Shown: in pieces, positions 4,292 to 51,020 of the stretch
Position numbering within the stretch: the first letter of the stretch is position 1
How the letters are laid out: each line of letters opens with the position of its first letter
From: Pseudomonadota bacterium
Lineage (GTDB): Bacteria; Pseudomonadota; Alphaproteobacteria; SHVZ01
Direction of reading: 5' to 3'
NCBI GenBank assembly: GCA_016195085.1
Contig: JACQAG010000024.1
Location: 1-64,000, forward strand
Length of the DNA stretch: 64,000 bases
The notes under the pieces: model-generated
Told to the model about the DNA's origin: nothing
The model's input: the letters and a program-made list of their open reading frames with translations, nothing else
Database searches by the model: none
Program-made: the position numbers and the translations under genes

Positions 4292-4482
4292 GGGGCCGAC
4301 GCTCCTTTCGCGGAAAGCCGCGGTCGATCGCATCCAGGGCCAGTGTGCCGGGCGGGACCGGGAGGCTCAAGGGAACCGGAGCCGGAAAAGATAAAAAGCG
4401 AATTAATCTTTCTTTAAAACTTCGCTGATATATTGTAGTTGAGAAACCAGGTCCGCCTACACGCACAGGAGGGATCCGTTCC

Positions 4483-28129: not shown

Positions 28130-29689
28130 CTAGCGATTGACGAATTCGGGCGTGGTGGCGATCAGCGCCACCAGCCGACGCAGCGCCGCTTCGAAAGCGC
28201 TCGCCCTCCCGCCGATGGCGGGACCGATGCCGTCGGCGCTCATGGCGTCGCTCAGAAGCGCGGCGTAGCTCGACGCCGAGAGGTTGCCGCCCAGCATGGC
28301 CTGGCTCCAAAAGGCGAGGATGCTGTCGACCGTGTTGGTGCCGGCCGGGAGCTGCGAGGCGAGCACCGCCTGGCCCCCGAGGATCGTGGTGCCGAACATG
28401 CCGAGAAGCAGGTTCCAGGTCCGCAGCGTCGTGTCGGTGGTGAGCCAATGGGCGTTGGTGTCGGGCAATCCGTCCGGCGTCGGCCAGGAGAACATGCGGT
28501 AGCCCGTGCTCTCGAGACCGCCCATCAGGTTCCAGCTCGGCGTCGCCACGGCGCCGACGGCGCGGAGGAACCCGACCAGCAGCTCGAACGGCCGGCGCAG
28601 CTTGATGCCTGGATTCTGCAGGAACTCCGGGGCATTGAGGATGGTGCGCAGCACCTGGGCGATCTGGTCGGGCGCGGTGCTGTTGGCGAGCCAGGTGGCG
28701 ACCGCCTTGTCCACCAATGATTGCGGCGCGTTCTCGCCGTAGAGGCGCTGGCAGAGCTTGCCGCAGACGAACGCCGCGGTCTTTGGGTGGTAGGCGGCGA
28801 GATCGAAGACCTTGCGCCCGGCGGCGAGATCGGCAGTGAAGCTGGCGAGGTCGATGCCCAGGACCCTGGCCGCGGCGCGACTGTGATATCGCGGAACATA
28901 GAGGAAGGATCCATTGGCCGGATCGATAGTCCAGCCCGACAGCGCCTTCGCCGCGCCGAACACGTCGTCATCGATGAAGCCGATGGGCTCGCCCGTGGGC
29001 AAGAGCGGCACCTGGTCCCAGCTGGCGTATTGGTGGTCGTAATAGTTCGGGCGGCCGAGCGTGTGCAGCTCCAGGAGCTCGCGTGCGTAGTTCTCGTTGG
29101 GGTGGCTGGCGCGGCTCGACTGGTTGTTGAGGAAGAACATCATCGCCGTGCTGGTGCCGACCGCCTCCAGAAGCTGGCGAAAATTGCCGAGGGCGTTGGC
29201 GCGGATCACGTCGCGATCATAGGCGGGCCAGGTCGCCATGATCTCGGTATCGGCGAAGGCATCGACGCTGAAATGCGTGTGCCAGAACTCGCACAGCATC
29301 TCCCTGAGCTGGTAGGAGCTGTGAACCGCACGGATCCAGGTGGCAACGCGGACCTCTTCGGTGGCCCGCATGACTTCCGACCAGGGCGTGGTAACGGCCT
29401 GGAAGCCGAGATGCAGCTGCCAGAGATCGGCAAGCGGCTTGCCCAAGGTATTGAGCGGACGATTCTCGCGCACGGCCGGCCAATTCGCGCCCGCCGGATA
29501 GCCGATCGGAAAGCGAGCGGCGGCGAGCATCGCCTGGGTCAGCGGATCGTCGCCCGGCGGCGCCGCCAGCTGCTCGTCCACATAGGCCGCGAGGCCGATC
29601 CGCTGCATCCGCGCGACGTCCGCCGGCAGGGGACCGTAGCTCATGCGCGAGAGAGCAATCCATTCCGGCGCAGCGTTGGCGATGGTCAT
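28130..29689 (-). CDS. DUF1800-family protein
   Basis: 519 residues from ATG 29689, chosen because GGAG precedes it by 6 bases; ATG 29770 upstream is less likely because it would put the CRP-like site inside the gene. DUF1800 landmarks: LSRMSYGP, AAYVDEQLA, MLCEFWHTHFSVD, MMFFLNNQSSRASHPNENYA, ARELLELHTLG, PKTAAFVCGKLCQRL. Function unknown; co-occurs with the exported DUF1501 protein. A perfect TGTGA-N6-TCACA site lies 67 bases upstream, suggesting control by a CRP-type regulator. Confidence 0.88.
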   Translation of the reverse strand: MTIANAAPEWIALSRMSYGPLPADVARMQRIGLAAYVDEQLAAPPGDDPLTQAMLAAARFPIGYPAGANWPAVRENRPLNTLGKPLADLWQLHLGFQAVTTPWSEVMRATEEVRVATWIRAVHSSYQLREMLCEFWHTHFSVDAFADTEIMATWPAYDRDVIRANALGNFRQLLEAVGTSTAMMFFLNNQSSRASHPNENYARELLELHTLGRPNYYDHQYASWDQVPLLPTGEPIGFIDDDVFGAAKALSGWTIDPANGSFLYVPRYHSRAAARVLGIDLASFTADLAAGRKVFDLAAYHPKTAAFVCGKLCQRLYGENAPQSLVDKAVATWLANSTAPDQIAQVLRTILNAPEFLQNPGIKLRRPFELLVGFLRAVGAVATPSWNLMGGLESTGYRMFSWPTPDGLPDTNAHWLTTDTTLRTWNLLLGMFGTTILGGQAVLASQLPAGTNTVDSILAFWSQAMLGGNLSASSYAALLSDAMSADGIGPAIGGRASAFEAALRRLVALIATTPEFVNR

Positions 29690-29755: not shown

Positions 29756-29771
29756 TGTGACCGCGGTCACA
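29756..29771. promoter_or_regulatory. Perfect CRP-type site upstream of the DUF1800/DUF1501 operon
   Basis: TGTGACCGCGGTCACA is an exact match to TGTGA-N6-TCACA, embedded in an 18-base perfect palindrome (29755-29772). It is 67 bases before the DUF1800 start codon, a usual distance for activator or repressor binding. The sequence is seen directly; the regulator is inferred. Confidence 0.7.
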
Positions 29772-32055: not shown

Positions 32056-32071
32056 TGTGACGGCCCTCACA
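32056..32071. promoter_or_regulatory. Perfect CRP-type site upstream of the CHAT-cyclase operon
   Basis: TGTGACGGCCCTCACA, an exact TGTGA-N6-TCACA, lies 81 bases before ATG 32153. This is one of only two perfect matches I found in the window, the other being at 29756. It argues against GTG 32057 as the real start of the CHAT gene, since that codon lies inside the site. Confidence 0.7.
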
Positions 32072-32152
32072 GCCGCGCTCGGCGAAACGGCGCAGGAATG
32101 CAACCGACTGGGGCTTACCCGACCCCTGGTCGAGTGCGTCCGCACTCATATC

Positions 32153-35100
32153 ATGGTACGGTTTCGGCCGTACCTGCCTCAGGGCTTGGCCGAGCGGGGG
32201 GCATGCGTGCTGAAGCAGCCTGACGACCGTGCCGAATTCGGCCGACGCTTGCGGTGCCCGCTTTCGCGGCTGCCAGCGCTGAGCCTCGCGATCGCGCTGA
32301 CTTCCATCACCGTCGCCCTCCTCCCCCTGCGGGAGGCGGACGCCCAGAGCGGGACCGCTGCCCCGTTGCAGCGCCAGGAGACCGAGGCGTCGCCCGACCA
32401 GCTCTTGGACGAGGCCTTTACCGCCAATCCGGAGCGCCTGGCTCAGGCGAAAGCCAAGGCGGCCGAGCCGCCGCCGCAGACCAACGATGCCGAGCGGCTG
32501 GCGCAGTTCTATCGCAATCGCGGCGTCGCCGCCCAGATCGCCAGCCTGCCGCAGCAGGCGATCGAGGATTTTCGGCGCGCCGCCGAGCTCGCCCGCCAGG
32601 CTCCGAGCGTCGACCGCGGCGAGATCCTGTGGCACCTTGCCACGGTCCTCGGCGGCATCCAGCGCACGCTGCCGGCCATCAATTTCCTCCGCGAGGCGAT
32701 CGAGGCGACACCGCAGAACCGCCGCGGCAGGGTCATCGGCTGGTATTCTCAGCTCGCCGGTTTTCAAGGCAGCATCGGCAATCTCCCGGCGGCCGAGCGA
32801 TCGGTGGCGCAATGCCAGGAGCAGTATCAGCAGCTGATCAACAGCCCGCGCCGTAATTTCAGCGAGCAGCTGCGCTTAACCTGGCATGTGCAGGTGCTGC
32901 GCGCCGAAGCTGCGTTGTGGCAGGCCAGGGGCCGCCAGGTGAAGGCGGAACCCCTGCTCCGCGAGGCGCTCGAGGAAGCGCAGAAGCTGCCGAACGGCGG
33001 TGGCGTCATGCAGGCCCTCCATGCCACCCTCTCGCGCAATCTGATGGTCCGCGGACGGCTCGGCGAGGCGGAGAACGAGGCGCGGTTGGCGCTCGCGCAA
33101 GCGCAGCGGGCCGGCGGTGCCGGCGGCATGCAGGCCAGTCACGCGCTGCTTGGCCTGGCCGTTGTGCTGATGGAAGAGGGCCGGGTGGTCGAGTCAGAGA
33201 CCTTGATCCGCAAGAGCATCGAAATCTTCAAAAGCGTCGGCTTGCAGGCGAATGGCGGAGTTCGATTCCCTCTTGCCCATGCGCTCGCCGCGCAAGGCCG
33301 CTGGCGGGAGGCCTATGACGAATTCGAGGTGGCGCGGAAGAGCTTCGCCCAGATCCCGCAGCAGTTCGAGCTGAAGGTCCGGCAGGATGTCACCTATCCC
33401 TTGGTGCTGCTGAAGTCGGGTCACGGCCCGGAAGCGGTTGAACGTCTGGCGGCGATGGCGGACACCGCGACGAAGCGCTTCGGGGAGAGGCATTACGCCG
33501 TAGCCGCCCTCCCGAGCGGTCTCTACGCCGTGGCGCTGGCGGAGACCGGTTCCACCGACAGGGCGCTCGCCGAATTCCAATCCTCGGTGCCGTTCCTCCT
33601 GCAGCGCTCGCGCGAGGCGAACGATGAGGAGGATTCGGCGGCCGGCCGCGAGCAGCGCGTGCGTCTTGTACTGGAATCCTACATCTCCCTGCTGGCGGAC
33701 CTGGCGGCTTCGGGCAAGTCCCTGCCCAACCTCGACCCGGCGGCCGAAGCCTTCCGGCTGGCCGAGGCCGCGCGCGGCCAGAGCGTCGTGCGCGCGCTCG
33801 CTGCCTCCTCGGCGCGGGCCGCGGCGGCGACACCTGAGCTCGCCGAGATCGCCCGGCGCGAGCAAGACGCCCAGCTGCAGCTCTCGGCCTTGAACGGGCT
33901 CCTGGCCAACGCCATCAGCGCCCGGGCCGAGGATCAAGATGAGAACGCGATCAAGACGCTCCGCGTCGAGATCGATCAGCTCCGCGACGAGCGGGCGAAG
34001 ATCGCCGGCGAGATCGAGCGCCGCTTCCCCGACTATGCCAATCTGATCAATCCAAAGCCCGCGAGCTTGGCCGACGCGCGCTCGAAGCTGCAGCCCGGCG
34101 AGGCCTTGCTCGCTTTCTATGTGGGCGAGCGCAGGACCTACGTCTGGGCGGTGTCTCCGTCGGGAGCGCATTTCAATGCGGCCCAGATCACGCGCGACGA
34201 TCTCACCCGGCAGGTGGCGGCGCTGCGCCAGGCCCTCGACCCCAACGCCCAGAGTCTCGATGACGTCCCGGCCTTCGATGTGGCGGCGGCCCAGCGCCTC
34301 TATGCCACGCTGATCCAGCCGACCGAGCCCGCCTGGGGCGAGGCGAAGAGCCTGCTGATGGTGCCGCACGGACCCTTGGGCCAGCTGCCGCTGGGCTTGC
34401 TGCCGACCACACCGGCCAGTCTGGAGAAGACCGGCCTCGCCTTCGCCGGCTATGCCAAGGTGCCTTGGTTGCTGCGCCGGGTGGCGGTGAGCCAGCTGCC
34501 TTCGGTCGCCTCCTTCTTGACCCTCCGCGCGCTCCCCGCCGGGCGCGGCGATCGTCGGCCCTTCGTCGGGTTCGGCGATCCCTGGTTCAGCCTTGCCCAG
34601 GCCGAGGAGGCGAAGGCGGCGATGAAGACCGAAGCCGCCCCGCTCACCACCCGCGGCGTTCGCTTGAAGCTGCGCAGCGCCCCCAGGGGTGCGGACATCG
34701 CCGCCGAGATGGCCCAGCTGCCGCGCCTGCCCGACACCGCCGAGGAGGTGCAGGGCGTGGCCCAAGCGCTCAAGGCCGATGCCGCCCATGAGGTGTTCCT
34801 CGGCGCCGCCGCCAGCAGGCAAACCGTCACCGGGCTCAAGCTCGCCAGCTGGCGCATCGTCATGTTCGCAACCCACGGCCTGGTGCCCGGCGACCTCACC
34901 GGCTTGACCCAGCCGGCGCTGGCCTTGAGCGCCCCGGAGGTGACCGGCGATGCCGGCACCGGCCTCTTGACCACCGAGGACATCCTGGCGCTCAAGCTCG
35001 ACGCCGATTGGGTCATCCTTTCGGCCTGCAATACGGCGGCCGGCCAGGGGGCGGGGGCCGAGGCGATCTCGGGTCTGGGGCGCGCCTTCTTCTACGCCGG

Positions 35101-35356
35101 GGCCCGGGCGCTGCTGGTCTCCAATTGGCCGGTCGAGACCACCTCGGCCCGGACCATCACCACCGACCTCTTCCAGCGCCAAGCGGAGAATCCCGGCCTG
35201 TCGCGCGCCGAGGCCCTCCGCCAGGCCATACTCGCTCTCATCGATAGCCCGGGTTATCTCGACCCTGGATCCGGCAAACCGCTGTTCTCCTACGCACATC
35301 CGATCTTCTGGGCCGCCTTCTCCCTCGTCGGCGACGGCGGCGGCACCTGGAGGTAA
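32153..35356 (+). CDS. TPR-CHAT domain protein (caspase-like protease), exported
   Basis: About 1067 residues from ATG 32153; GTG 32207 (GGGGGG 5 bases upstream) is an equally good start and puts a signal peptide (PALSLAIALTSITVALLPL, cleavage near ADA-QSG) close to the N-terminus. TPR-like helical repeats run from about 33000 to 33550 in nucleotide terms (GRLGEAENEARLALAQAQ, EEGRVVESETLIRKSIEI, AQGRWREAYDEFEVARK), then a coiled-coil-like part, then a C-terminal CHAT domain. The protease dyad is visible: His codon at 34874 (FATHGLVPG) and Cys codon at 35027 (LSACNTAAG). CHAT proteases belong to the caspase/separase clan and cleave partner proteins. The substrate is unknown; the two following gene products are the nearest candidates. 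Confidence 0.88.
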   Translation: MVRFRPYLPQGLAERGACVLKQPDDRAEFGRRLRCPLSRLPALSLAIALTSITVALLPLREADAQSGTAAPLQRQETEASPDQLLDEAFTANPERLAQAKAKAAEPPPQTNDAERLAQFYRNRGVAAQIASLPQQAIEDFRRAAELARQAPSVDRGEILWHLATVLGGIQRTLPAINFLREAIEATPQNRRGRVIGWYSQLAGFQGSIGNLPAAERSVAQCQEQYQQLINSPRRNFSEQLRLTWHVQVLRAEAALWQARGRQVKAEPLLREALEEAQKLPNGGGVMQALHATLSRNLMVRGRLGEAENEARLALAQAQRAGGAGGMQASHALLGLAVVLMEEGRVVESETLIRKSIEIFKSVGLQANGGVRFPLAHALAAQGRWREAYDEFEVARKSFAQIPQQFELKVRQDVTYPLVLLKSGHGPEAVERLAAMADTATKRFGERHYAVAALPSGLYAVALAETGSTDRALAEFQSSVPFLLQRSREANDEEDSAAGREQRVRLVLESYISLLADLAASGKSLPNLDPAAEAFRLAEAARGQSVVRALAASSARAAAATPELAEIARREQDAQLQLSALNGLLANAISARAEDQDENAIKTLRVEIDQLRDERAKIAGEIERRFPDYANLINPKPASLADARSKLQPGEALLAFYVGERRTYVWAVSPSGAHFNAAQITRDDLTRQVAALRQALDPNAQSLDDVPAFDVAAAQRLYATLIQPTEPAWGEAKSLLMVPHGPLGQLPLGLLPTTPASLEKTGLAFAGYAKVPWLLRRVAVSQLPSVASFLTLRALPAGRGDRRPFVGFGDPWFSLAQAEEAKAAMKTEAAPLTTRGVRLKLRSAPRGADIAAEMAQLPRLPDTAEEVQGVAQALKADAAHEVFLGAAASRQTVTGLKLASWRIVMFATHGLVPGDLTGLTQPALALSAPEVTGDAGTGLLTTEDILALKLDADWVILSACNTAAGQGAGAEAISGLGRAFFYAGARALLVSNWPVETTSARTITTDLFQRQAENPGLSRAEALRQAILALIDSPGYLDPGSGKPLFSYAHPIFWAAFSLVGDGGGTWR

Positions 35357-35359
35357 TCA

Positions 35360-36052
35360 ATGACCGGTATCTCGCGCGCGATCCTCGCCATCGCCGGCGG
35401 CCTCTTCGCTAGTCTGGCGATCACCCTACCCCTCGCCTCCGCCGGCGCGGCGGAGGATCCGGTGGCGCTCGTCGAGGACATCACCAATCCCGCCGACGGG
35501 ATCGACTTCATGGATGTCTTGCCCAAGGGCAAGGTGATCAAGCTCGGAGCCAAGGACACCTTGATCCTGGGCTACCTCAAGTCCTGCCAGCGCGAGGTGA
35601 TCACCGGCGGAACCGTCACCGTCGGAGCCGAGCAGAGCATCATTGCCGGCGGCAAGGTCGAGCGGCGCAAGGTCGAGTGCGACGGCGGCCACATGCGCTT
35701 GACCGCCGATCAATCGGGCAAGAGCGGCGTCATGGTCTTCCGCGGCGCGCCCGGCAAGCTGCCGCCGGCGCAGCTCACACTCTATGGCACCAGTCCGGTC
35801 ATCAGCCTCACCAGCGGCAGCGGCACGGTGGTGGTCGAGCGCCTGGACAAGCCCGGCGAGAAGCGCGAGGTGACGGTCGGCGGCGGCGGCGCGATCCGCT
35901 CCGCCTTCTTCGACTTCGCCCGCCACGACATGGCGCTCGCCGCCGGCGGGCTCTACCGCGCCAGCAGCGGCGGCCGCGAGCTGGTCTTCAAGGTCGCCCC
36001 CGACGCCCAGCCCGGGGTGACGCCGCTGGTCGGCCGGGCGATCCGCCTCTGA
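35360..36052 (+). CDS. Secreted conserved protein, partner of the CHAT/cyclase operon
   Basis: 230 residues. ATG 35360 follows the CHAT stop by 3 bases and has GGAGG overlapping that stop, so translation is coupled. Signal peptide about 1-31 (ends SAGAAED). The mature part is beta-rich: DVLPKGKVIKLGAKDTLILG, a Cys at CQREVITGG and another at VECDGGHMRL, which could form a disulfide. It recalls FecR-type periplasmic sensor domains in length and strand pattern but I cannot assign the family firmly. By position it could be the ligand or modulator of the CHASE2 domain of the next gene, or a CHAT substrate. Confidence 0.72.
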   Translation: MTGISRAILAIAGGLFASLAITLPLASAGAAEDPVALVEDITNPADGIDFMDVLPKGKVIKLGAKDTLILGYLKSCQREVITGGTVTVGAEQSIIAGGKVERRKVECDGGHMRLTADQSGKSGVMVFRGAPGKLPPAQLTLYGTSPVISLTSGSGTVVVERLDKPGEKREVTVGGGGAIRSAFFDFARHDMALAAGGLYRASSGGRELVFKVAPDAQPGVTPLVGRAIRL

Positions 36053-36083
36053 GGCGGCCGCGCCACGAGTTAGTCCGCCGCCG

Positions 36084-38219
36084 ATGAGGTGGCGCGATCT
36101 CGCCGGTGCGCTTCTGATCGCATTCGCCGTGACCGGCGTGCTCGCGACGGCACCCTTCGCCTTCTTCTCCGGTCTGTCGATCGACCTCTTGTTCTGGCTG
36201 CGCCACCACAGCTACGGGGCGCTGCATCAGGCGGAGGACTCGCCGACGGTGGTGGTGGCCTTCGATGAGGAATCGCACCGAACCCCGCCCTTCGACGGCG
36301 TACCCCAGGCGCTTTGGACCAAGGATGTCGGCCACGTGCTCGATGCCGTGCTTGTCGGCGGGGCGAAGGTGATCGGCTTCGACGTGATCTTCGAGAAATC
36401 GATGGAGAGCTTCGTTCCCGGCTTCGACCGCGACTTCCTGCGGGCGCTCTTTCGCGGCGGCCGGGAACGAAAGGTGGTGCTTGGCAAGGTCCAGCACGCG
36501 ATCCTGCCGATCGCTCCCTTCCGCACCCAGGTGCTCGCCGTCGGCAATGCCGCCAACGTGCGCACGACCAACCTGTTTCGCGACGACGATGCGGTGATCC
36601 GCCGTATCCCGCTGCTTCTGGAGAGCGATGATCTGCAGAGCGGCGTCAGGCACGAGACCTCGATGGCCCTCGAGCTGGCCGCGCGCTGGCTCGGGCGGGT
36701 GCCGGAAGCGCTCGCCGATGGCGGAGTGCGCCTCGGCGACTATCTCATTCCGCAGTCGCCGCCCAACAACATGCCGATCAACTTCTCGACCGGGATCGGC
36801 GACGTTCCCACATATTCCTTCGCCGATCTCGCCGCCTGCGCGGATGCAGGCAATACGGAGTTCTTCGCCCGGCATTTCGCCGGCAAGGTGGTGCTGCTCG
36901 GCGCGGTGCTCGACGTCGAAGATCGAAAGCTCACCTCGAAGCGGCTGGCCACCGGCCGGGAAGGTACGACGAGCGGAGAGCGCTGCGTGCATCCGCCCAT
37001 GCAGGGCCTCTACCAGGAGGATCTGATTCGCGACGACATTCCCGGCGTGTTCATCCATGCCAACGCCGTCAACAATCTCCTGCGCGGCGAGGGCCTGATG
37101 GAGCTCGACCGGCCGATGGCGATCGCCATCACCTTCGCCCTTGGAGCGGTGTCGGCGGTTGTGGCGCTGCTCTTGCCGGCAGGCCGCTCGGGCCTGGTGC
37201 TGCTGGCGGGAGCGCTCCTGTGGGTCGCCGCGGCGACCGCGGCGTTCCGCCACGGCACCGTGCTGCCCCTGGTGCAGCCGCTGGTCGCCATGGCCGCGAC
37301 CTTCGCGGCACTCTTGGGATATCGCTTCACCGTGACCGACCGCGACAAGCGCCAGCTCAAGCGCGCCTTCGCCTTCTACCTCGCTCCCGCGGTGGTCGAT
37401 CGCATGCTGGCGGCCAACAGCACGCCCGAGCTCGGCGGCGAGACGCGGCAGCTGACCGTGTGGTTCTCCGATCTTGCCGGCTTCTCCACCTTCGCCGAAG
37501 GCATGGAGCCGGACGACCTGGTGGCGCTGATGACCGAATACCTCTCGGCGATGACCGAGGTGGTGGAAGTCCATGGCGGCTTCGTCGACAAATACATCGG
37601 CGATGCGGTGGTGGCCGTGTTCGGCGCGCCGGTCGAGGATGCTCTGCACGCACGCCACGCCGTCGAGGCGGCGCTCGGCTGCGCCCAGCGGCTGAAGGAT
37701 CTCAACGCCAACTCGCCCTTGCTCCGCGGCCGGCCCTTGGCGCAGCGGATCGGCGTCAACACCGGCCAGGTGCTGGTCGGCAATATCGGCTCGCACCGCC
37801 GCTTCAACTACACGGTCATGGGCGATCCGGTGAACGTCGCCTCCCGCCTGGAAGGGGTGAACAAGGTCTATGACACGGAGATCCTGGTGACGGATGCCAC
37901 GGCGGCGGCGACCGGCGATGGCGTGTTCTACCGCGAGATCGACACCATTCGCGTCAAGGGCCGCGATACGCCCTTCAATGTCTTCGAGCCGATGGGGACG
38001 GCCGGCAGTCTCCCGGCCGATCGCCTCGAGCTTTGCCGCCGCTACGCCGAAGCGCTCGGACACTATCGGGCCGGCCGCTTTGCCGAGGCGCGGAGCGTCC
38101 TCGATGCGATCGCTGAAGGCGATCCCCCCTCGGCGCGCCTTCTCGACGTGGTCAAGGGCTTGGCCGGGCGGCCGCTATCCGCGGGCTGGGAACCGATCAA
38201 TACGCTTCTGGAGAAATAG
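36084..38219 (+). CDS. Adenylate cyclase with CHASE2 sensor domain
   Basis: 711 residues. One N-terminal helix (about 5-28), a periplasmic CHASE2 domain (about 30-335), three further helices (about 343-415) and a cytosolic class III cyclase domain (about 455-640). Catalytic features are intact: metal ligands D462 (WFSDLAGF) and D507 (KYIGDAVVAVF), adenine-selecting K503 and D581, and transition-state N585 and R588 (GDPVNVASRLE). It should make cAMP in response to a periplasmic signal. Third gene of the CHAT operon, 31 bases after the secreted partner; a CRP-type site heads the operon, which would allow feedback by its own product. Confidence 0.9.
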   Translation: MRWRDLAGALLIAFAVTGVLATAPFAFFSGLSIDLLFWLRHHSYGALHQAEDSPTVVVAFDEESHRTPPFDGVPQALWTKDVGHVLDAVLVGGAKVIGFDVIFEKSMESFVPGFDRDFLRALFRGGRERKVVLGKVQHAILPIAPFRTQVLAVGNAANVRTTNLFRDDDAVIRRIPLLLESDDLQSGVRHETSMALELAARWLGRVPEALADGGVRLGDYLIPQSPPNNMPINFSTGIGDVPTYSFADLAACADAGNTEFFARHFAGKVVLLGAVLDVEDRKLTSKRLATGREGTTSGERCVHPPMQGLYQEDLIRDDIPGVFIHANAVNNLLRGEGLMELDRPMAIAITFALGAVSAVVALLLPAGRSGLVLLAGALLWVAAATAAFRHGTVLPLVQPLVAMAATFAALLGYRFTVTDRDKRQLKRAFAFYLAPAVVDRMLAANSTPELGGETRQLTVWFSDLAGFSTFAEGMEPDDLVALMTEYLSAMTEVVEVHGGFVDKYIGDAVVAVFGAPVEDALHARHAVEAALGCAQRLKDLNANSPLLRGRPLAQRIGVNTGQVLVGNIGSHRRFNYTVMGDPVNVASRLEGVNKVYDTEILVTDATAAATGDGVFYREIDTIRVKGRDTPFNVFEPMGTAGSLPADRLELCRRYAEALGHYRAGRFAEARSVLDAIAEGDPPSARLLDVVKGLAGRPLSAGWEPINTLLEK

Positions 38220-38264: not shown

Positions 38265-39491
38265 ATGCATCGAGCTGCCGATCAGAGCCCAGATGAAGCC
38301 GCACCGGCGCGGGCGCATGCCACGCTCATCACCTGCGGGGCGACGCACGCGCTGCATGACGGGCTCGGCGATGCGCTCTATCTCCTGCTGCCAATCTGGC
38401 AATCGAGCTTTGGTCTCTCGCTCGCCGAAATCGGCCTGCTCAAGACCTCCTTCTCGGCCGCGCTCGCCAGCGTCCAGGTGCCCGCCGGCATCGCCTCGGA
38501 GCGGCTCGGCGAACCGGCGCTGCTGGCGCTTGGCACCGCGGCGATGTCCTTGGGTTTTCTGCTGCTAGGCCTGGCGGACGGCTTCGCCCCGCTGGCGCTG
38601 GCGATCGGGCTCATGGGAGCGGGAGCCGCCGTACAGCATCCACTGTCATCGGCGCTGGTCGCGGCCGCCTATGGCGAAGCGCGCCGGCGGTTGGCGCTCG
38701 GCACCTACAACTTCGCCGGCGACCTCGGTAAGGTGGCGATTCCGGCGGCGCTCGGCCTGGCGTCCGTCTATGTCGGCTGGCGCAGCGCCACCATGGGGCT
38801 CGGCGCCTTCGGCATCCTCGGCTCGGCCTTTCTGTACGCCATGCTGGTTCGCCTCAGACCCGGTAGCCGGCATGACGACCGGCACGCGGCACCGGCCCGC
38901 GGCGGCTGGGGCATCCGCGATGCGCGCGGCTTTGCCGCCCTCTCCGCCATCGGCGTCATCGACAGCATGACGCGAACCGGCTTTCTCACGTTGCTGCCGT
39001 TCTTCCTCGTGAGCCGGGGGGCGGCCATTGCCGAAATCGGCTTCGCGCTGGCCCTGGTTTTCGCCGGCGGCGCCGCCGGCAAGTTCTTGTGCGGTGCGAT
39101 CGCCGGACGCCTTGGCATCGTCGCCACGGTGATCTTGAGCGAATTCCTGACCTCGGCAGCGGTGCTGGCCCTGCTGGTCGTGCCGGATTGGGCGGCAATG
39201 CTGCTGCTGCCGCTCGTTGGGGTGGGGCTCAACGGCACCTCCTCGGTGCTCTACGGCACCATTGCCGATCTGGTCGAGCCCGAGCGCCGTGCCCGCGCCT
39301 TTGGACTTTTCTACAGCATCGGCATCGGCGCAGGCGCGCTTTCGCCGACTGTCTGTGGGGTGATTGCCGACCGGGCGGGTGTGCCTCAGACCTTGGCCTT
39401 GGTCGCCCTCATGGTGCTGCTGACCCTGCCTCTGTCCGCCTTCTTGCGGCAGACCGGCCGCATCCAGCCGAGCCTGCCGGCGGCCCCCTAG
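38265..39491 (+). CDS. Major facilitator superfamily transporter
   Basis: 408 residues from ATG 38265 (a TTG at 38244 would add seven). Twelve predicted membrane helices and an MFS-type loop; the N-terminal HALHDGLGDALYLLLPIWQ resembles fosmidomycin-resistance (Fsr)-like exporters, which is a similarity of type, not proof of substrate. It follows the cyclase by 45 bases and may belong to the same transcript. Its TAG stop is formed by the left end of palindromic element A (39490-39537). Confidence 0.85.
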   Translation: MHRAADQSPDEAAPARAHATLITCGATHALHDGLGDALYLLLPIWQSSFGLSLAEIGLLKTSFSAALASVQVPAGIASERLGEPALLALGTAAMSLGFLLLGLADGFAPLALAIGLMGAGAAVQHPLSSALVAAAYGEARRRLALGTYNFAGDLGKVAIPAALGLASVYVGWRSATMGLGAFGILGSAFLYAMLVRLRPGSRHDDRHAAPARGGWGIRDARGFAALSAIGVIDSMTRTGFLTLLPFFLVSRGAAIAEIGFALALVFAGGAAGKFLCGAIAGRLGIVATVILSEFLTSAAVLALLVVPDWAAMLLLPLVGVGLNGTSSVLYGTIADLVEPERRARAFGLFYSIGIGAGALSPTVCGVIADRAGVPQTLALVALMVLLTLPLSAFLRQTGRIQPSLPAAP

Positions 39492-44954: not shown

Positions 44955-46379
44955 ATGCTTCTGGGGGGCAGTGGGAGGGCGAGCGGATCGGCGGGGCGAC
45001 GTCGGGCATGGCGGCTGCTTTTGGCCGCCCTCGGGGCCGTTTCGCTCGCCGTTCCAGCCGCGGCGGAGGCGGGCCAGGGGCTCGAGCCGACCCTCGGCCT
45101 CCAGCTGGCGCAGGCGTCCTCCGTGTCGGCCGCCACCCGCGCCGAATATGACCGGACCTTCCAGGCGGTGCTCCGCGACCCAGGCAACCTGGATTTGACC
45201 TTCCGCTTCGCCGAGCTCGCGGTCGAGGTCGGCGACCTCGAAGGCGCGATCGGAGCGCTCGAGCGGCTGCTGGTCTTCAACCCGGACCTGCCGCGGGTGC
45301 GCCTCGAGCTTGGCGTCCTCTACTATCGCCTCGGCTCCCACCAAGCCGCCAAGGCATATCTGGAGCAGGCGCTCGCCGCCCCCAATGCCCCAGCGGAGGT
45401 GCGCGAGCGCGTCAGGCCGCTCATCGCCGAGATCGACCGCTCGCTTACGACCAGCCATTTCTTCGGCGCGGTGCAATTGGGCACCCGCTACCAGACCGAC
45501 GCCAATGCCGCCACCGCCACCGGCAACGTCAAGCTGTTCGGCCTCGATGCGACGCTGTCGAGCGAATTCCTGAAGCAGCACGACTCCAACGGCTTCATCG
45601 TCGGCAATCTCGGCTATATCTACGATCTTGGAAACCAAGCCGGCGACGCCATCGAGAGCAACCTGAGACTCGTGGCCACGCGACAGTTCCGGCTGACGAG
45701 CCTCGATCTCGGCTTTCTCGAGGCCGATGTCGGCCCGCGGTTCCACCCGTTCGAGCGCATGCCCGGCCTGTCGCTCAGGCCTTACGCCGTCGGCGGCGCC
45801 GTCACCCTGGGCGAAGCGCTCTATTACAAGGGCGGCGGCGGTGGGCTCAGCCTCGATACGCCGCTGACCCGCGCGCTCGCGGTCAACCTGGACGGCGAAG
45901 GACGGGCACGCTGGTTCCACAATACCGCCTCGCGCTCGACCTCGACCGACAAGAACGGCCCGGAGACCGTCGGCCGGCTGACGGCCCGCTACGCGCTCTC
46001 TCCGGTCGCGGCGGTGGTGGCGGCGTTCGAGTTCGTCCGCGACGCCAGCCAGGCGGATAACGAGCGCAACAATCAGTACGGTGTGACCGTCGCCTACAAC
46101 CGGCAATTTTCGGCGCCGTTCCGGCTTACCCGGCTGCCCTGGTCGTTCAGCCTCAACGCCGGGCGGGTGTGGCGCGAATATGCGGGCCCCGATTCCTCCG
46201 TCGATCCCGACGTCACCCGCCACGACCGCGAGTGGTCCGTCGGCGGCTCGCTGACGGCGGGGCTCTTCGGCCGCTGGTCTGCGACCCTGCAGGTCCAGCA
46301 GCAATGGGTGAACTCGGCGCTCGTAAACTTCGCCTACCGCAATTCCGCCGTTTCCCTCGCTCTCGGCTACGCTTTCTAG
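44955..46379 (+). CDS. TPR protein with C-terminal outer-membrane beta-barrel (DUF560/Slam-like)
   Basis: 474 residues. Signal peptide (about 15-37). Residues about 55-155 hold TPR-like units (LTFRFAELAVEVGDLEGAIG, ALERLLVFNPDLPRVRLELG, YYRLGSHQAAKAYLEQALAA). Residues about 160-474 are a series of amphipathic strands ending in phenylalanine (SLALGYAF), the usual outer-membrane barrel signal. This architecture matches surface-lipoprotein-assembly-modifier (Slam/DUF560) proteins, which move proteins to the cell surface. The next gene, 21 bases downstream, encodes a FecR-domain protein that may be its client. Confidence 0.78.
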   Translation: MLLGGSGRASGSAGRRRAWRLLLAALGAVSLAVPAAAEAGQGLEPTLGLQLAQASSVSAATRAEYDRTFQAVLRDPGNLDLTFRFAELAVEVGDLEGAIGALERLLVFNPDLPRVRLELGVLYYRLGSHQAAKAYLEQALAAPNAPAEVRERVRPLIAEIDRSLTTSHFFGAVQLGTRYQTDANAATATGNVKLFGLDATLSSEFLKQHDSNGFIVGNLGYIYDLGNQAGDAIESNLRLVATRQFRLTSLDLGFLEADVGPRFHPFERMPGLSLRPYAVGGAVTLGEALYYKGGGGGLSLDTPLTRALAVNLDGEGRARWFHNTASRSTSTDKNGPETVGRLTARYALSPVAAVVAAFEFVRDASQADNERNNQYGVTVAYNRQFSAPFRLTRLPWSFSLNAGRVWREYAGPDSSVDPDVTRHDREWSVGGSLTAGLFGRWSATLQVQQQWVNSALVNFAYRNSAVSLALGYAF

Positions 46380-46400
46380 CTGTGCACAGGAGCTCGTGAC

Positions 46401-48785
46401 ATGAACACTCACTCCCGTTCCGCCGCGCTCATACTGTCGCTCTCCGTCAGCATGCTCGCGCTGACTGCAACCGCCGTCGACGCGCAGCCTGCGAACAAGG
46501 CCGGCGTCGCCGCCGCGGTCAACGCCAGGACCGATGGGACGCCGTCCACGAGCGCCACCCGAAGGCTCGAGATCGGCAACGACGTCTTCCAGCAGGAGCG
46601 CATCGCAACCGACGCTCAGGGACAGGCGCAGATGCTGTTCCTCGACGGCTCGGCCTTCACCGTCGGGCCGAACGCCGAGGTGGTTCTGGATGAGTTCGTC
46701 TACGACCCAAGCACCGAGGTGGGCAAGCTCGCGGTCTCCGCCAGCAAGGGGCTGATGCGGTTCGTCGGCGGCAAGCTCAGCAAGAAGGATGCGGTCGCCA
46801 TCAAGACGCCGACGGCGACGCTCGGCATCCGCGGCGGCATCGCGCTCGTCGAGGTGGACGGCCAGACCGGCGCAACCGAAGCCACGCTCCTGTTCGGCGA
46901 CGAGCTGACGGTGAGGGCGATCAACGGCGAAATCCAGCGGATCACGCGGCCGGGCTTCTCGACCACGGTCGCCAGCCGGGATTCGGCGCCAACGTCGCCC
47001 CGGCGGGCGGAGCACGATCGGCTCGGCCGGTCGCTGAACCAGCTGAACGGCAGGCCCGGCGCCGGCGGCGGAGCTAGAGAGGTTCCAACCGAGGCCCACG
47101 TCGCCGGCTCGCTGGTCGGCGGGGTCAATTCGAGGCCGGTGGCAGAGGCAATGGCACGCGGAGGGCCAGGCCCGAGCGGCCCCGGCCCCGGCCCCGGCGC
47201 CCCGCCGCCGCCCCCGCCGCCGCCGCACGACCCGGTCGCTGCCGCCAGCCAGACCGGCAACAAGGCCACCGCGGCGAAGAACAACGTCGTCATCGGTGCC
47301 TACGCGGTCGCTCCGGACCCGTCGCTGAACTCGGCCATCCCGTCGGTGCGCGGTGCGGTCGGCGGTAACCTTCCCGGCGCCGTGGTCTCGCATCAGTTCC
47401 TCGTCACCGGCACGGGGAGCGACGGAATCCAGACCCGCGGCGTCCAGGCGAGCATCGTGATCAACGGCCAGGGTGCCGGGCAGCGCTCGCTGGTCGTGGT
47501 CACCACCAGCGAGGTGCTCACGCGCGACAACGGCAGGAACAATTTCCTCGCAGGCACCGAGCGCGGCTCGGCGCGCACCGGCGCTACCGACGGATCGATC
47601 CTGATCGGCGCCCTCACCACGACGAAGAACGATTCGACCTTCTCCGGCAACAAGCTGCCCGACACCTACGTGTCGGGTACGAGCGATCCCGCGGGCGTCA
47701 GGAGCACTGCGGTCGATGTCGGCCTCGTGCCGGCGACCAAGACCGAGTACTCCTTCGTGCAGAACGCGTTCCGGGTCGCGCCGCCGGCCGGGGTCGGCGT
47801 ATCGCGAACCGGCCAGGTCATGGGCGGCTACGCGACCGGCATGGTCGACACGCGACTGCCGAATGGCACGCGCGCGGACCCGACGATCCTGACCTCCGGC
47901 CAGTTCTCGAGCACGGGCGCGCAGACCCAGGCCGGCCCCGACGCCGTGCAGATCGCGACCAATCCCGGCAATCACCGGATCGCCGCCAACTTCAACCTTT
48001 CCGACGGTACCACCGACATCGACGGCAGGGCGCGCACCCGAGCGCCCAACAATTACGGCTTGAAGTTCGGATCCCTCGATGGCCCGAACAACGCCCGCAG
48101 CGCCTTCATCGACGACAATGCCTTCGCTGCCGGGGAGACGCTCGTTTCCGGCACCAACCAGGTCGCCTCGACCGTCAACGGCAATCAGGTCATCAGCGAT
48201 CCCAACCTGGCCATAAGCCAGCTCTACCTCGTCTCCAGTGCGCTCGCCTCCACAGCCAGCGTATTGCCGGCGGGCGTGCAGTTCTGCCAATGCGAGTTCG
48301 TGAAATGGGGCTTTTGGGGCGGCCAGCTCGCCACCGGAGATGCTTCGGCCTTGCGCCTCGATCGCATCCATCTCGGCACCTGGGTCGCCGGCCCGATGGC
48401 CAGGGCCTCGGACATGCCGCAGACCGGCATCGCGACCTTTGTGGGCCATGCCATCGGCACGGTGGTGAACGGCAGCGCCCAGTACATCGCCGGCGGCGGC
48501 TTTTCCAATGTCTGGGACTTCGGGCGCAAGCAGGGCGCGCTCACCATCAGCAACTTCGACGGGCTCACCATGAGCGGGGCTCTCAGCAGCGCCAATGGCC
48601 GCGACTATGGTGGCACGCTGGCGGTCACTGGGCAGAGCGGCCTCGGCGGCAGCGCTCAAGGCTCGTTCTTCATGGGCAGGGGCGATCCGGCGCGCGAGAC
48701 CGGCGGCCAGTTCGTGGTCAAGGCCAGCGGAACCGGCGGGTCGCGCTACGGGGCGACCGGAATCTTCGTTGGCCGCAAGCCCTAG
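46401..48785 (+). CDS. FecR-domain protein with long beta-rich C-terminal region
   Basis: 794 residues. Signal peptide about 1-28 (ends TAVDAQ). FecR domain about 50-190 (ATDAQGQAQMLFLDGSAFTV, DEFVYDPSTEVGKLAVSASK, KTPTATLGIRGGIALVEVDG). A Gly/Pro linker with an eight-proline run (around 250-275) leads to a C-terminal part of about 500 residues rich in Gly, Thr, Ser and beta-strand patterns, reminiscent of surface or transferrin-binding-type barrels. No sigma factor lies nearby, so it is not a classical FecR-FecI system. It follows the TPR-barrel gene and converges with a second CHASE2 cyclase; FecR-type domains often accompany such cyclases. Confidence 0.8.
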   Translation: MNTHSRSAALILSLSVSMLALTATAVDAQPANKAGVAAAVNARTDGTPSTSATRRLEIGNDVFQQERIATDAQGQAQMLFLDGSAFTVGPNAEVVLDEFVYDPSTEVGKLAVSASKGLMRFVGGKLSKKDAVAIKTPTATLGIRGGIALVEVDGQTGATEATLLFGDELTVRAINGEIQRITRPGFSTTVASRDSAPTSPRRAEHDRLGRSLNQLNGRPGAGGGAREVPTEAHVAGSLVGGVNSRPVAEAMARGGPGPSGPGPGPGAPPPPPPPPHDPVAAASQTGNKATAAKNNVVIGAYAVAPDPSLNSAIPSVRGAVGGNLPGAVVSHQFLVTGTGSDGIQTRGVQASIVINGQGAGQRSLVVVTTSEVLTRDNGRNNFLAGTERGSARTGATDGSILIGALTTTKNDSTFSGNKLPDTYVSGTSDPAGVRSTAVDVGLVPATKTEYSFVQNAFRVAPPAGVGVSRTGQVMGGYATGMVDTRLPNGTRADPTILTSGQFSSTGAQTQAGPDAVQIATNPGNHRIAANFNLSDGTTDIDGRARTRAPNNYGLKFGSLDGPNNARSAFIDDNAFAAGETLVSGTNQVASTVNGNQVISDPNLAISQLYLVSSALASTASVLPAGVQFCQCEFVKWGFWGGQLATGDASALRLDRIHLGTWVAGPMARASDMPQTGIATFVGHAIGTVVNGSAQYIAGGGFSNVWDFGRKQGALTISNFDGLTMSGALSSANGRDYGGTLAVTGQSGLGGSAQGSFFMGRGDPARETGGQFVVKASGTGGSRYGATGIFVGRKP

Positions 48786-48794
48786 CTCGCGGCC

Positions 48795-51020
48795 TCACTT
48801 GCTCTTGGCGACGTAGACCCCATCCCAGCCGGGCACGGGCGGATTTGAGCGGAATTCGCCGATGCGCTCGGCGAACATCTGGTAGAGCGCTTCGAGATCG
48901 GGCCTGAGCCCGCGGCACTCGGCGAGCGCCCGTTCCGCCGCCTCCCAGTCCTGCGCGCGGTAAGCCTTGATCATCGCCGCATGGTGCACGCCGAAGGCTT
49001 GGAACGACGGCTCCGTCACCAGGTCCGTCGGCCCCATCAGCGCATAGATGCGGACCGCCTCCTTCTTGCCTTTGACCGCGATCAGGTCGAGCTCGATCGC
49101 GGCAAAGTCCGGGGCCTTCGCGCGCGTCTCCTCACCGATGACGATGGTCATGCCATAGGTCTTTGACTGGCCTTCGAGACGCGAGGCGAGATTGACCGCA
49201 TCGCCCAGGACCGAATAGTCGAAGCGCTGCTCGGAGCCCATGTTGCCGACGACGACCTCGCCGGAATTGAGCCCGATGCCGACCGCGAGCGGCCGATGCG
49301 GCCGGCCGGAAGCGGCGGCCTCATCCGCCAGGCGCTCGTTCAAGCGGGTGAGCTCGTCCAGCATGGAGAGCGCCGCCTCGCAGGCATGGCGCCCGTGCTC
49401 GCGATCCTCGATGGGCGCGTTCCAGAACGCCATGACGCAGTCGCCCATGTACTTGTCGATGGTGCCGCGGCGGGCGAGGATCGCGTTCGTCATCGGCGTC
49501 AGGAAGCGGTTGATGAGCTGGGTCAATCCTTGCGGGTTGGCCTTGAACCCCTCGGAGATGCTGGTGAAGCCGCGCACGTCGCAAAAGAGGAAGGTCATGT
49601 CGCGGGTTTCGCCGCCGAGCTTGAGCTTGCCCGGATCCCGGGCCAGCTCGTCGACCAATGCCGGCGACAGATACTGGGCGAAGGCGCCGCGCACCTGCCG
49701 CTTCTCCGCCTCGGTGCGCATATAGGTCAACAGCGAGCCGGCGAGATAAACCGCAAGGCTCGCCACCGACGGCACGACCGGGTCGACGAGAACGTGCTCG
49801 ACCTCGTATCCATACCAGGAGCCGGCGAAGGCTGCCGCAATGGCGGCCACCCCGACGCTGGCGGCGACCAGCGCACCCACCCGCGCGATGACGATGATGA
49901 GGGCCGTACCCAGGACCAGAAGGAAGCTGATCTCGGCGCCATCCGCCCAATCCGGGCGTTCGAGATATTGTCCCAGCAGGATCTGCTCGAGGGCCTGCGC
50001 ATGCGCCTGGACGCCCGGCAGCGCCGGATCGAGCGGCGTCGTCCTAAGATCGAACAGGCCGGCGGCGCTGGTGCCGACCACCATGATGTTGCCGCCGATC
50101 TCGTCTTCGGCGACTTCGCCCGACAGCACGCGCCAAGCCGAAATCGCCTCGCCCTCGACCCGTCGGCGGAAATGCAGCCAAACCTGGCCCCGGCTATCGG
50201 TGGGGACCACCTGTGGGCCGATCTTGACCGTGTTGATGCCGGTGTTGGCGCCGAAACTCAATGCTTGATTGGCGCCCGAGGCCTTGACGATGAAGGTGCG
50301 GGCACCCAGCCCGACGCGGAGGACTTCGGCCACCAGCGAGGGATAGAGCTGGGAGCCCAGGCGCAGCACCAGGGGCACGCGCCGGGTCATGCCATCAGGG
50401 TCTTGCACCAGGTTGAGGCTGCCATTGCCGGCCGCAGCCTTCTCGATCGGCTCGAGATCGACCACCGCGCCGACATAGCTCGGAATGAAGGGGTTGGGAT
50501 CGTCGCCGGCGACCGCGAAGCTGCCCTTGAGCTGAGGTGGGCGACGGCCGGGAGTTGCGGTCAAGGTGAAACCGGTCACCACCCGCGCTTGGCCGATGGC
50601 TTCGGCCAGGAGGCGGTCATGGTCGGGCAAGCCGGAAATCGCCTCCTTGAGCCGCACCAGCTCGGGCGCATCCGCCCAAAGCCGGACGACTTCCGTGGGC
50701 GAGGTCCGGTCCGGCTCGGGAAACATCATGTCGAGGGCGACGACGGCGGCTCCAGCCTCGGCGAGATTGCCGATGAGCTTGGCCATGACCGTTCGCGGCC
50801 ACGGCCATTGGCCGATGCGCGCCAGGCTTTCCTCGTCGATATCGACGACGCGGACCGGCGCCGCCTCAGGCTCCCGGGGGGCGAAGACCTGGTAGGCATC
50901 GAAGACTCTGAGCCGAAAGCCGCCCAGCAGCTCCCCCGGATCGATGACGCGCCAGGACAGCGCCAGGGCCAGCATGGCGATGGGGATGGAGTAGTCGACA
51001 AGCCGCCGGAAGAACCGCAT
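48795..51020 (-). CDS. Adenylate cyclase with CHASE2 sensor domain, second copy
   Basis: 741 residues with the same layout as the cyclase at 36084: one helix at about 8-24, CHASE2 about 30-355 (VVDIDEESLARIGQWPWPRT is the family hallmark), three helices about 363-433, class III cyclase about 470-660. Catalytic residues: D481 (FCDVRGFTS), K523 and D527 (IDKYMGDCVMAF), D607, N610 and R614 (GDAVNLASRLE). Everything needed for cAMP synthesis is present. Its stop lies 9 bases from that of the FecR-domain gene, tail to tail. It is paralogous to, but clearly diverged from, the first cyclase. Confidence 0.92.
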   Translation of the reverse strand: MRFFRRLVDYSIPIAMLALALSWRVIDPGELLGGFRLRVFDAYQVFAPREPEAAPVRVVDIDEESLARIGQWPWPRTVMAKLIGNLAEAGAAVVALDMMFPEPDRTSPTEVVRLWADAPELVRLKEAISGLPDHDRLLAEAIGQARVVTGFTLTATPGRRPPQLKGSFAVAGDDPNPFIPSYVGAVVDLEPIEKAAAGNGSLNLVQDPDGMTRRVPLVLRLGSQLYPSLVAEVLRVGLGARTFIVKASGANQALSFGANTGINTVKIGPQVVPTDSRGQVWLHFRRRVEGEAISAWRVLSGEVAEDEIGGNIMVVGTSAAGLFDLRTTPLDPALPGVQAHAQALEQILLGQYLERPDWADGAEISFLLVLGTALIIVIARVGALVAASVGVAAIAAAFAGSWYGYEVEHVLVDPVVPSVASLAVYLAGSLLTYMRTEAEKRQVRGAFAQYLSPALVDELARDPGKLKLGGETRDMTFLFCDVRGFTSISEGFKANPQGLTQLINRFLTPMTNAILARRGTIDKYMGDCVMAFWNAPIEDREHGRHACEAALSMLDELTRLNERLADEAAASGRPHRPLAVGIGLNSGEVVVGNMGSEQRFDYSVLGDAVNLASRLEGQSKTYGMTIVIGEETRAKAPDFAAIELDLIAVKGKKEAVRIYALMGPTDLVTEPSFQAFGVHHAAMIKAYRAQDWEAAERALAECRGLRPDLEALYQMFAERIGEFRSNPPVPGWDGVYVAKSK

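Follow-up and report, generated by a model that had tools for sequence, protein, structure and literature searches.

A CHASE2 cyclase and an exported cysteine-pair protein form a conserved alphaproteobacterial unit with a predicted CRP-type operator and recurring exported proteases

In the window, by which we mean the whole 64-kb stretch of DNA that was analysed, a predicted CRP-type operator, TGTGACGGCCCTCACA, occupies positions 32056..32071 (no strand assigned) and is followed by three coupled genes on the plus strand: an exported CHAT-TPR protease (predicted, 32153..35356), an exported, beta-rich “partner” protein of 230 residues (35360..36052), and a CHASE2 transmembrane class III adenylate/guanylate cyclase (36084..38219). 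These are the genes described in the initial annotation, and they are tightly packed, with 3 bp between CHAT and partner and 31 bp between partner and cyclase. The MFS gene that comes next (38265–39491) was considered as a fourth member and rejected, as it is not kept beside the pair in the closest triad.

The first gene product matches the Pfam CHAT domain with E = 3.7e-47 and also contains TPRs. Sequence comparison places the catalytic His codon, within an ATHG motif, at 34874..34876 (+) and the catalytic Cys codon, within a SACN motif, at 35027..35029 (+), exactly where an intact dyad had been claimed; the His–Cys dyad is intact as well in all CHAT homologues long enough to judge, and we predict the protein to be an active protease. 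The longest reading frame starts inside the operator (GTG 32057). The true start is probably ATG 32153 or GTG 32207, because the signal segment LPALSLAIALTSITVALLPLREADAQ comes next and because the homologues begin there, with signal peptides or lipobox-like N-termini; the operator would therefore end 82–136 bp upstream of the gene. In the closest triad (L033, in G004), the CHAT gene has an in-frame TAG near 4352–4354, between the signal region and the TPRs, which may mark either a pseudogene or an assembly error. The source genome (G000) has a second CHAT gene at C71:56106–57188; the contig that carries it yielded no CHASE2 gene.

The partner belongs to an unnamed family, in which six residues are invariant across 35 aligned homologues: Ala36, Leu62, Cys76 (codon 35585..35587, +), Gly84, Cys107 (codon 35678..35680, +), and Tyr199. 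We infer that Cys76 and Cys107 form a disulfide. No convincing match was obtained for any of the 35 homologues in Pfam or NCBIfam. The AlphaFold2 model has two predicted beta domains (mean pLDDT 83.5, pTM 0.46), and a search of the PDB with this model gave only generic Ig/FNIII-like hits, none at E ≤ 0.001. A diverged FecR protein was also considered and rejected, since the homologues gave no FecR match and the HHalign probability to FecR was 1.2%.

In the cyclase, identified by domain and motif matches, the CHASE2 domain (aa 14–350, 36123..37133, +; E = 5e-27) lies between transmembrane segments and is followed by the catalytic domain (aa 455–629, 37446..37970, +; Guanylate_cyc E = 1.8e-22), the arrangement of a CHASE2–class III receptor. 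The motifs SDLAGF, DKYIGD, and VNxxxR are retained, together with the metal and ATP residues, bearing out the claim that all catalytic residues are present.

The palindrome at 32056–32071 is, as first reported, a perfect TGTGA-N6-TCACA. Two perfect copies occur in the window, at 29756 and 32056, where dinucleotide-preserving shuffles give a chance expectation of 0.02 per window (two sites in 0/100 shuffles), in agreement with the earlier rough estimate of about 0.02 per 64 kb. The source genome (4.81 Mb in 95 contigs, 95.9% complete) contains 15 perfect sites and none of the pattern read backwards; genome-wide, palindromic arms with a 6-bp spacer are above chance. The other site in the window, 29756–29771 (TGTGACCGCGGTCACA), is likewise perfect and lies upstream of a minus-strand DUF1800–DUF1501 gene pair. 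It overlaps the first possible GTG of the DUF1800 gene, the likely start of which is an ATG near 29689, and therefore this site too is upstream of an operon; with the start codons corrected, the observation that both sites precede operons stands.

Searching 385 alphaproteobacterial genomes (the “class sample”), we found the partner family in 48. The full locus set combined the class-sample loci and their flanks with a scan of named genomes and with plasmid records, and was clustered at 70% partner identity. In 64 loci, or 41 clusters, the gene immediately after the partner encodes a CHASE2 cyclase; these loci come from genera that include Bradyrhizobium, Rhodoplanes, Reyranella, Tagaea, and Azospirillum. 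The expected gene order of CHAT, partner, and cyclase thus held in part: the partner–cyclase pair is tight, but CHAT stands beside it in only 20 of the 64 loci (15 of 41 clusters). For this reason the conserved core is, judging by gene neighborhoods, the pair of partner and CHASE2 cyclase, with CHAT an optional third member. The CHAT frequency is inflated in loci L143–L176, because the query for the contigs of the named genomes was built mainly from CHAT-containing loci, and the class sample gives a fairer value (12 of 38 loci).

Other exported proteases recur in the neighborhood. An M48 metalloprotease gene is found directly 3′ of the cyclase in nine loci (six clusters), never together with CHAT among the 64 loci, and a C14 caspase gene is found next to the pair in eight (three clusters). 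Four of the C14 genes immediately precede the partner gene, three of them in loci that also have CHAT; in the other four loci (L104, L105, L107, L110), a gene for an exported beta-propeller–C14 caspase is divergent from the pair, as is an outer-membrane-barrel-like gene, with a perfect site in the common intergenic region in three of the four. Taken together, at least one exported protease (CHAT, C14, or M48) accompanies the pair in 34/64 loci and 23/41 clusters. Azospirillum has ShlB/FhaC as its third gene.

The operator recurs as well. With at most one mismatch allowed, TGTGA-N6-TCACA was found upstream of the pair in 18 of the 64 loci (9 of 41 clusters; 28.6 kb of upstream DNA scanned), while 29 controls with scrambled arms reached at most two clusters. 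A spacer of 6 gives these 18 loci, and no other length between 0 and 13 gives more than one; over the entire loci (912 kb) there are 26 matches, 18 of which fall within the 28.6 kb upstream. In one genus (L104/L105/L107), the arms are identical and the spacers vary. The position of the operator varies too: in several relatives it comes after CHAT, before the next genes, rather than in front of CHAT, and two further exact sites, one in a Tagaea genome and one in an Azospirillum MAG, separate CHAT from a C14 caspase gene that precedes the pair. Conservation of the site in relatives with the operon is thus partial: in the other 32 clusters, the Azospirillum plasmid copies among them, the DNA scanned does not contain it. 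Bradyrhizobium iriomotense, a cultured relative that has the unit, does carry the site. By this comparison, the operator upstream of the pair is common, not universal, and both operator and unit are real and conserved.

These results bear on the simplest objection, namely that the 32056 palindrome arose by chance or is a terminator-type inverted repeat and has no regulatory role. In its favor, the corresponding near-match in the closest triad (L033) sits in a longer hairpin 3′ of the upstream gene, and a search for a sigma-70 consensus promoter adjoining 32056 found none. Against it are the genome-wide excess, the spacer specificity, the conservation of the site, and the result of a search at 32056 for a terminator-like site, which was negative, and we hold this explanation to be very improbable.

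Does the genome encode a suitable regulator? It contains 11 cNMP-binding stretches. In four proteins such a stretch is combined with a DNA-binding helix, and three of the four retain the cAMP pocket: L017 (GEIALLDGRERSA), L018 (GELSAIDGEPRSA), and L022 (GEIAAIDGGSRSA). All three combine the pocket with an RE-type recognition helix, so that the CRP homologue whose presence the initial annotation wanted checked has three candidates. The best PDB match of L018 is E. coli CAP (2e-24), the recognition helix of which aligns with TTRETVAR in L018; L022 has the identical recognition helix. L017 is closest to M. tuberculosis Rv3676, with SRESVNK in place of SRETVNK.

The operators themselves fall into two classes: TGTGAA-N4-TTCACA beside L017-type crp genes (eight exact) and TGTGA(C/T) beside partner–cyclase units, the site at 32056 belonging to the latter. 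This difference weakens the case for L017 as the regulator of 32056, and the co-occurrence of L017 orthologues with the site is not significant (Fisher p = 0.15 or 0.07). L018 and L022 appear the better candidates on account of the operator class, of the L018-type CRP genes (TTRETVAR) that lie head-to-head with a partner–cyclase pair in two genomes (L088/L249 in G297 C348, L090/L251 in G374 C128), and of G007, in which an L018-type CRP gene has TGTGACGGCCGTCACA just upstream. The intergenic regions between CRP gene and pair in G297 and G374 contain no site with ≤ 2 mismatches, and upstream of L018 in the source genome no clear site was found. The same head-to-head layout is apparent in a third contig (L095, G206), at its cut edge.

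The source genome has 17 class III cyclase genes, and two of its 15 perfect sites lie < 200 bp upstream of one (C42:88407 and C56:2842), where about 0.02 would be expected (p = 0.0014 per site when 400 bp are allowed for each cyclase; two-site tail probability about 2e-4). The 32056 site is a third cyclase-linked site: it heads the operon, and the cyclase is the third gene, 4 kb on. The site at C42:88407 (TGTGAAGCAGTTCACA; L121, 6777–11866) lies between an L017-type CRP gene with its adjacent gene and a divergent zinc-ribbon/cyclase/AAA gene. Orthologous crp loci in seven other genomes have exact TGTGAA-N4-TTCACA sites too, which suggests that the L017-type CRP is autoregulated through an operator class of its own. 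The site at C56:2842 is on a short contig (L122) with two class III cyclase stretches, one of them preceded by TGTGACTGAAATCACA.

Bacteria have many CRP/FNR proteins with other ligands, and a family member that does not sense cAMP could bind the operator, leaving no feedback loop. L026 of the source genome fits such a role in that it has the HTH and lacks the cAMP-pocket residues. As L017, L018, and L022 retain the pocket motif and two other cyclase genes are each closely preceded by one of the 15 sites, we regard a regulator of this kind as improbable. A CRP-type operator heading the unit, as originally suggested, gains support from its conservation in relatives, from the CRP homologues present, and from the CRP genes that two genomes carry divergently beside the pair; on these comparisons there is good support for a CHASE2-cyclase unit controlled by CRP.

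On the basis of the gene content, catalytic residues, export signals, pair co-occurrence, operator conservation, and CRP candidates read from the sequences, we consider it probable that the unit as a whole serves as a cAMP receptor module that faces the periplasm and is subject to CRP-type control. At its core would be the CHASE2 cyclase together with the exported Cys-pair protein. The latter is most likely periplasmic and would most likely bind a signal or present it to the CHASE2 domain; such a role as CHASE2 accessory is plausible. The cAMP made by the cyclase would load a CRP-type regulator, most likely of the TTRETVAR type (L018/L022), and the loaded regulator would bind the operator at 32056 and control the operon, activation being more likely than repression, thereby closing a feedback loop by cAMP–CRP that we consider likely. 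An exported protease, which is CHAT here and a C14 caspase or M48 metalloprotease in other loci, would be an optional addition that tunes the signal by processing some envelope protein, perhaps the partner. Gating through cleavage of the partner by CHAT, as first suggested, is possible, the argument for it being the recurrence of three families of exported protease next to the pair.

The broadest form of this proposal is that, across the alphaproteobacteria, exported caspase-fold proteases and metalloproteases act on the Cys-pair protein that controls the CHASE2 cyclase, so that extracytoplasmic proteolysis would set cAMP and cAMP–CRP would feed back on the same operon; we find this rather unlikely. 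As a receptor domain, CHASE2 is widespread in bacteria, and to our knowledge few of its ligands and accessory proteins have been identified; nor do we know of a settled function for exported bacterial caspase-type proteases. A tightly linked, unnamed partner with invariant cysteines, together with a conserved operator and candidate regulators, offers a direct handle on how CHASE2 cyclases are switched, while the repeated placement of exported caspase-type proteases beside the pair, swapped with M48, gives a concrete hypothesis for their function.

The closest known system is that of S. meliloti, with the CHASE2 cyclases CyaD1, CyaD2, and CyaK and the CRP-family regulator Clr, whose gene adjoins cyaD1 (PMC5498481). 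Clr controls the exported neighbors of CyaD1, the FecR protein SMc02177 and the periplasmic SMc02178, and another cyclase gene, cyaF2, is a Clr target; signal perception does not require these two neighbors, whereas the phenotype does (PMC5498481). By analogy, this argues against the partner as sensor, and it favors an alternative in which the operon is an output unit of cAMP–CRP: partner and proteases would remodel the envelope as cAMP rises, with the cyclase merely amplifying and no gating. That the gene beside the pair varies freely (CHAT, C14, M48, ShlB/FhaC) while the pair persists also agrees with an output role. The partner is, however, far more tightly tied to the cyclase than to any protease, which fits a direct partner–CHASE2 relation better than a general effector, and we regard the output role as possible but doubtful.

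Returning to the receptor module, the likeness to CyaD1/CyaD2/CyaK–NsrA–Clr lies in a CHASE2 class III cyclase that is encoded next to exported proteins and linked to a CRP-family cAMP regulator. Unlike in S. meliloti, the exported proteins here include proteases, the partner is not a FecR protein (a FecR domain was found in none of the 35 homologues), no NsrA-like outer-membrane barrel is encoded among the three genes, and the operator is TGTGA-N6-TCACA in contrast to the Clr box TGTT-N8-AACA. In magnetospirilla, mtxA, whose product has a signal peptide and a domain of the beta-sandwich type, is followed by a CHASE2 cyclase gene (PMC4439547); the gene order of an exported beta-type protein and then a cyclase resembles our pair, a likeness by description only.

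Among caspase-fold proteases, HetF, gasdermin-linked CHAT, and Craspase share with our protein the CHAT domain, His–Cys dyad, and TPRs, and in Trichodesmium a metacaspase–CHASE2 fusion joins a caspase fold to CHASE2 directly (PMC3501461). Unlike these, the CHAT protein here has an exported or lipoprotein form, is encoded separately under a CRP-type site, and has no gasdermin or CRISPR partner. Two defense functions were considered and found unsupported: for CHAT–gasdermin/Craspase defense, CHAT and partner have no gasdermin, CRISPR, or PADLOC match and carry N-terminal export signals, and for Pycsar, the cyclase domain matches PycC models but CHAT and partner match no PADLOC family.

In the literature covered, a search for an operon of CHAT and CHASE2 found none. 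The claim that the system had not been described therefore holds for the whole combination, as far as that literature shows, but not for its parts, as the wiring of CHASE2 cyclases to CRP-family regulators with exported partners is known (PMC5498481), as is clustering with FecR and TPR proteins (PMC9239204). Since the principle of CHASE2 cyclase, CRP-type regulator, and exported partners is known, the unit is a variant of it; new here are the partner family, the conservation of the operator, and the recurring exported proteases. The Campylobacterota clusters comprise a CHASE2 cyclase, a FecR outer-membrane protein, a TPR protein, and a phosphodiesterase (PMC9239204); our unit differs in having neither FecR nor phosphodiesterase, and in that its TPR protein bears a CHAT protease domain. 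A second CHASE2 cluster in the window (44955–51020) is of the known FecR type, with a TPR/outer-membrane barrel-like protein, a FecR protein that gives the genome's only FecR match, and a convergent CHASE2 cyclase on the minus strand (48795–51020).
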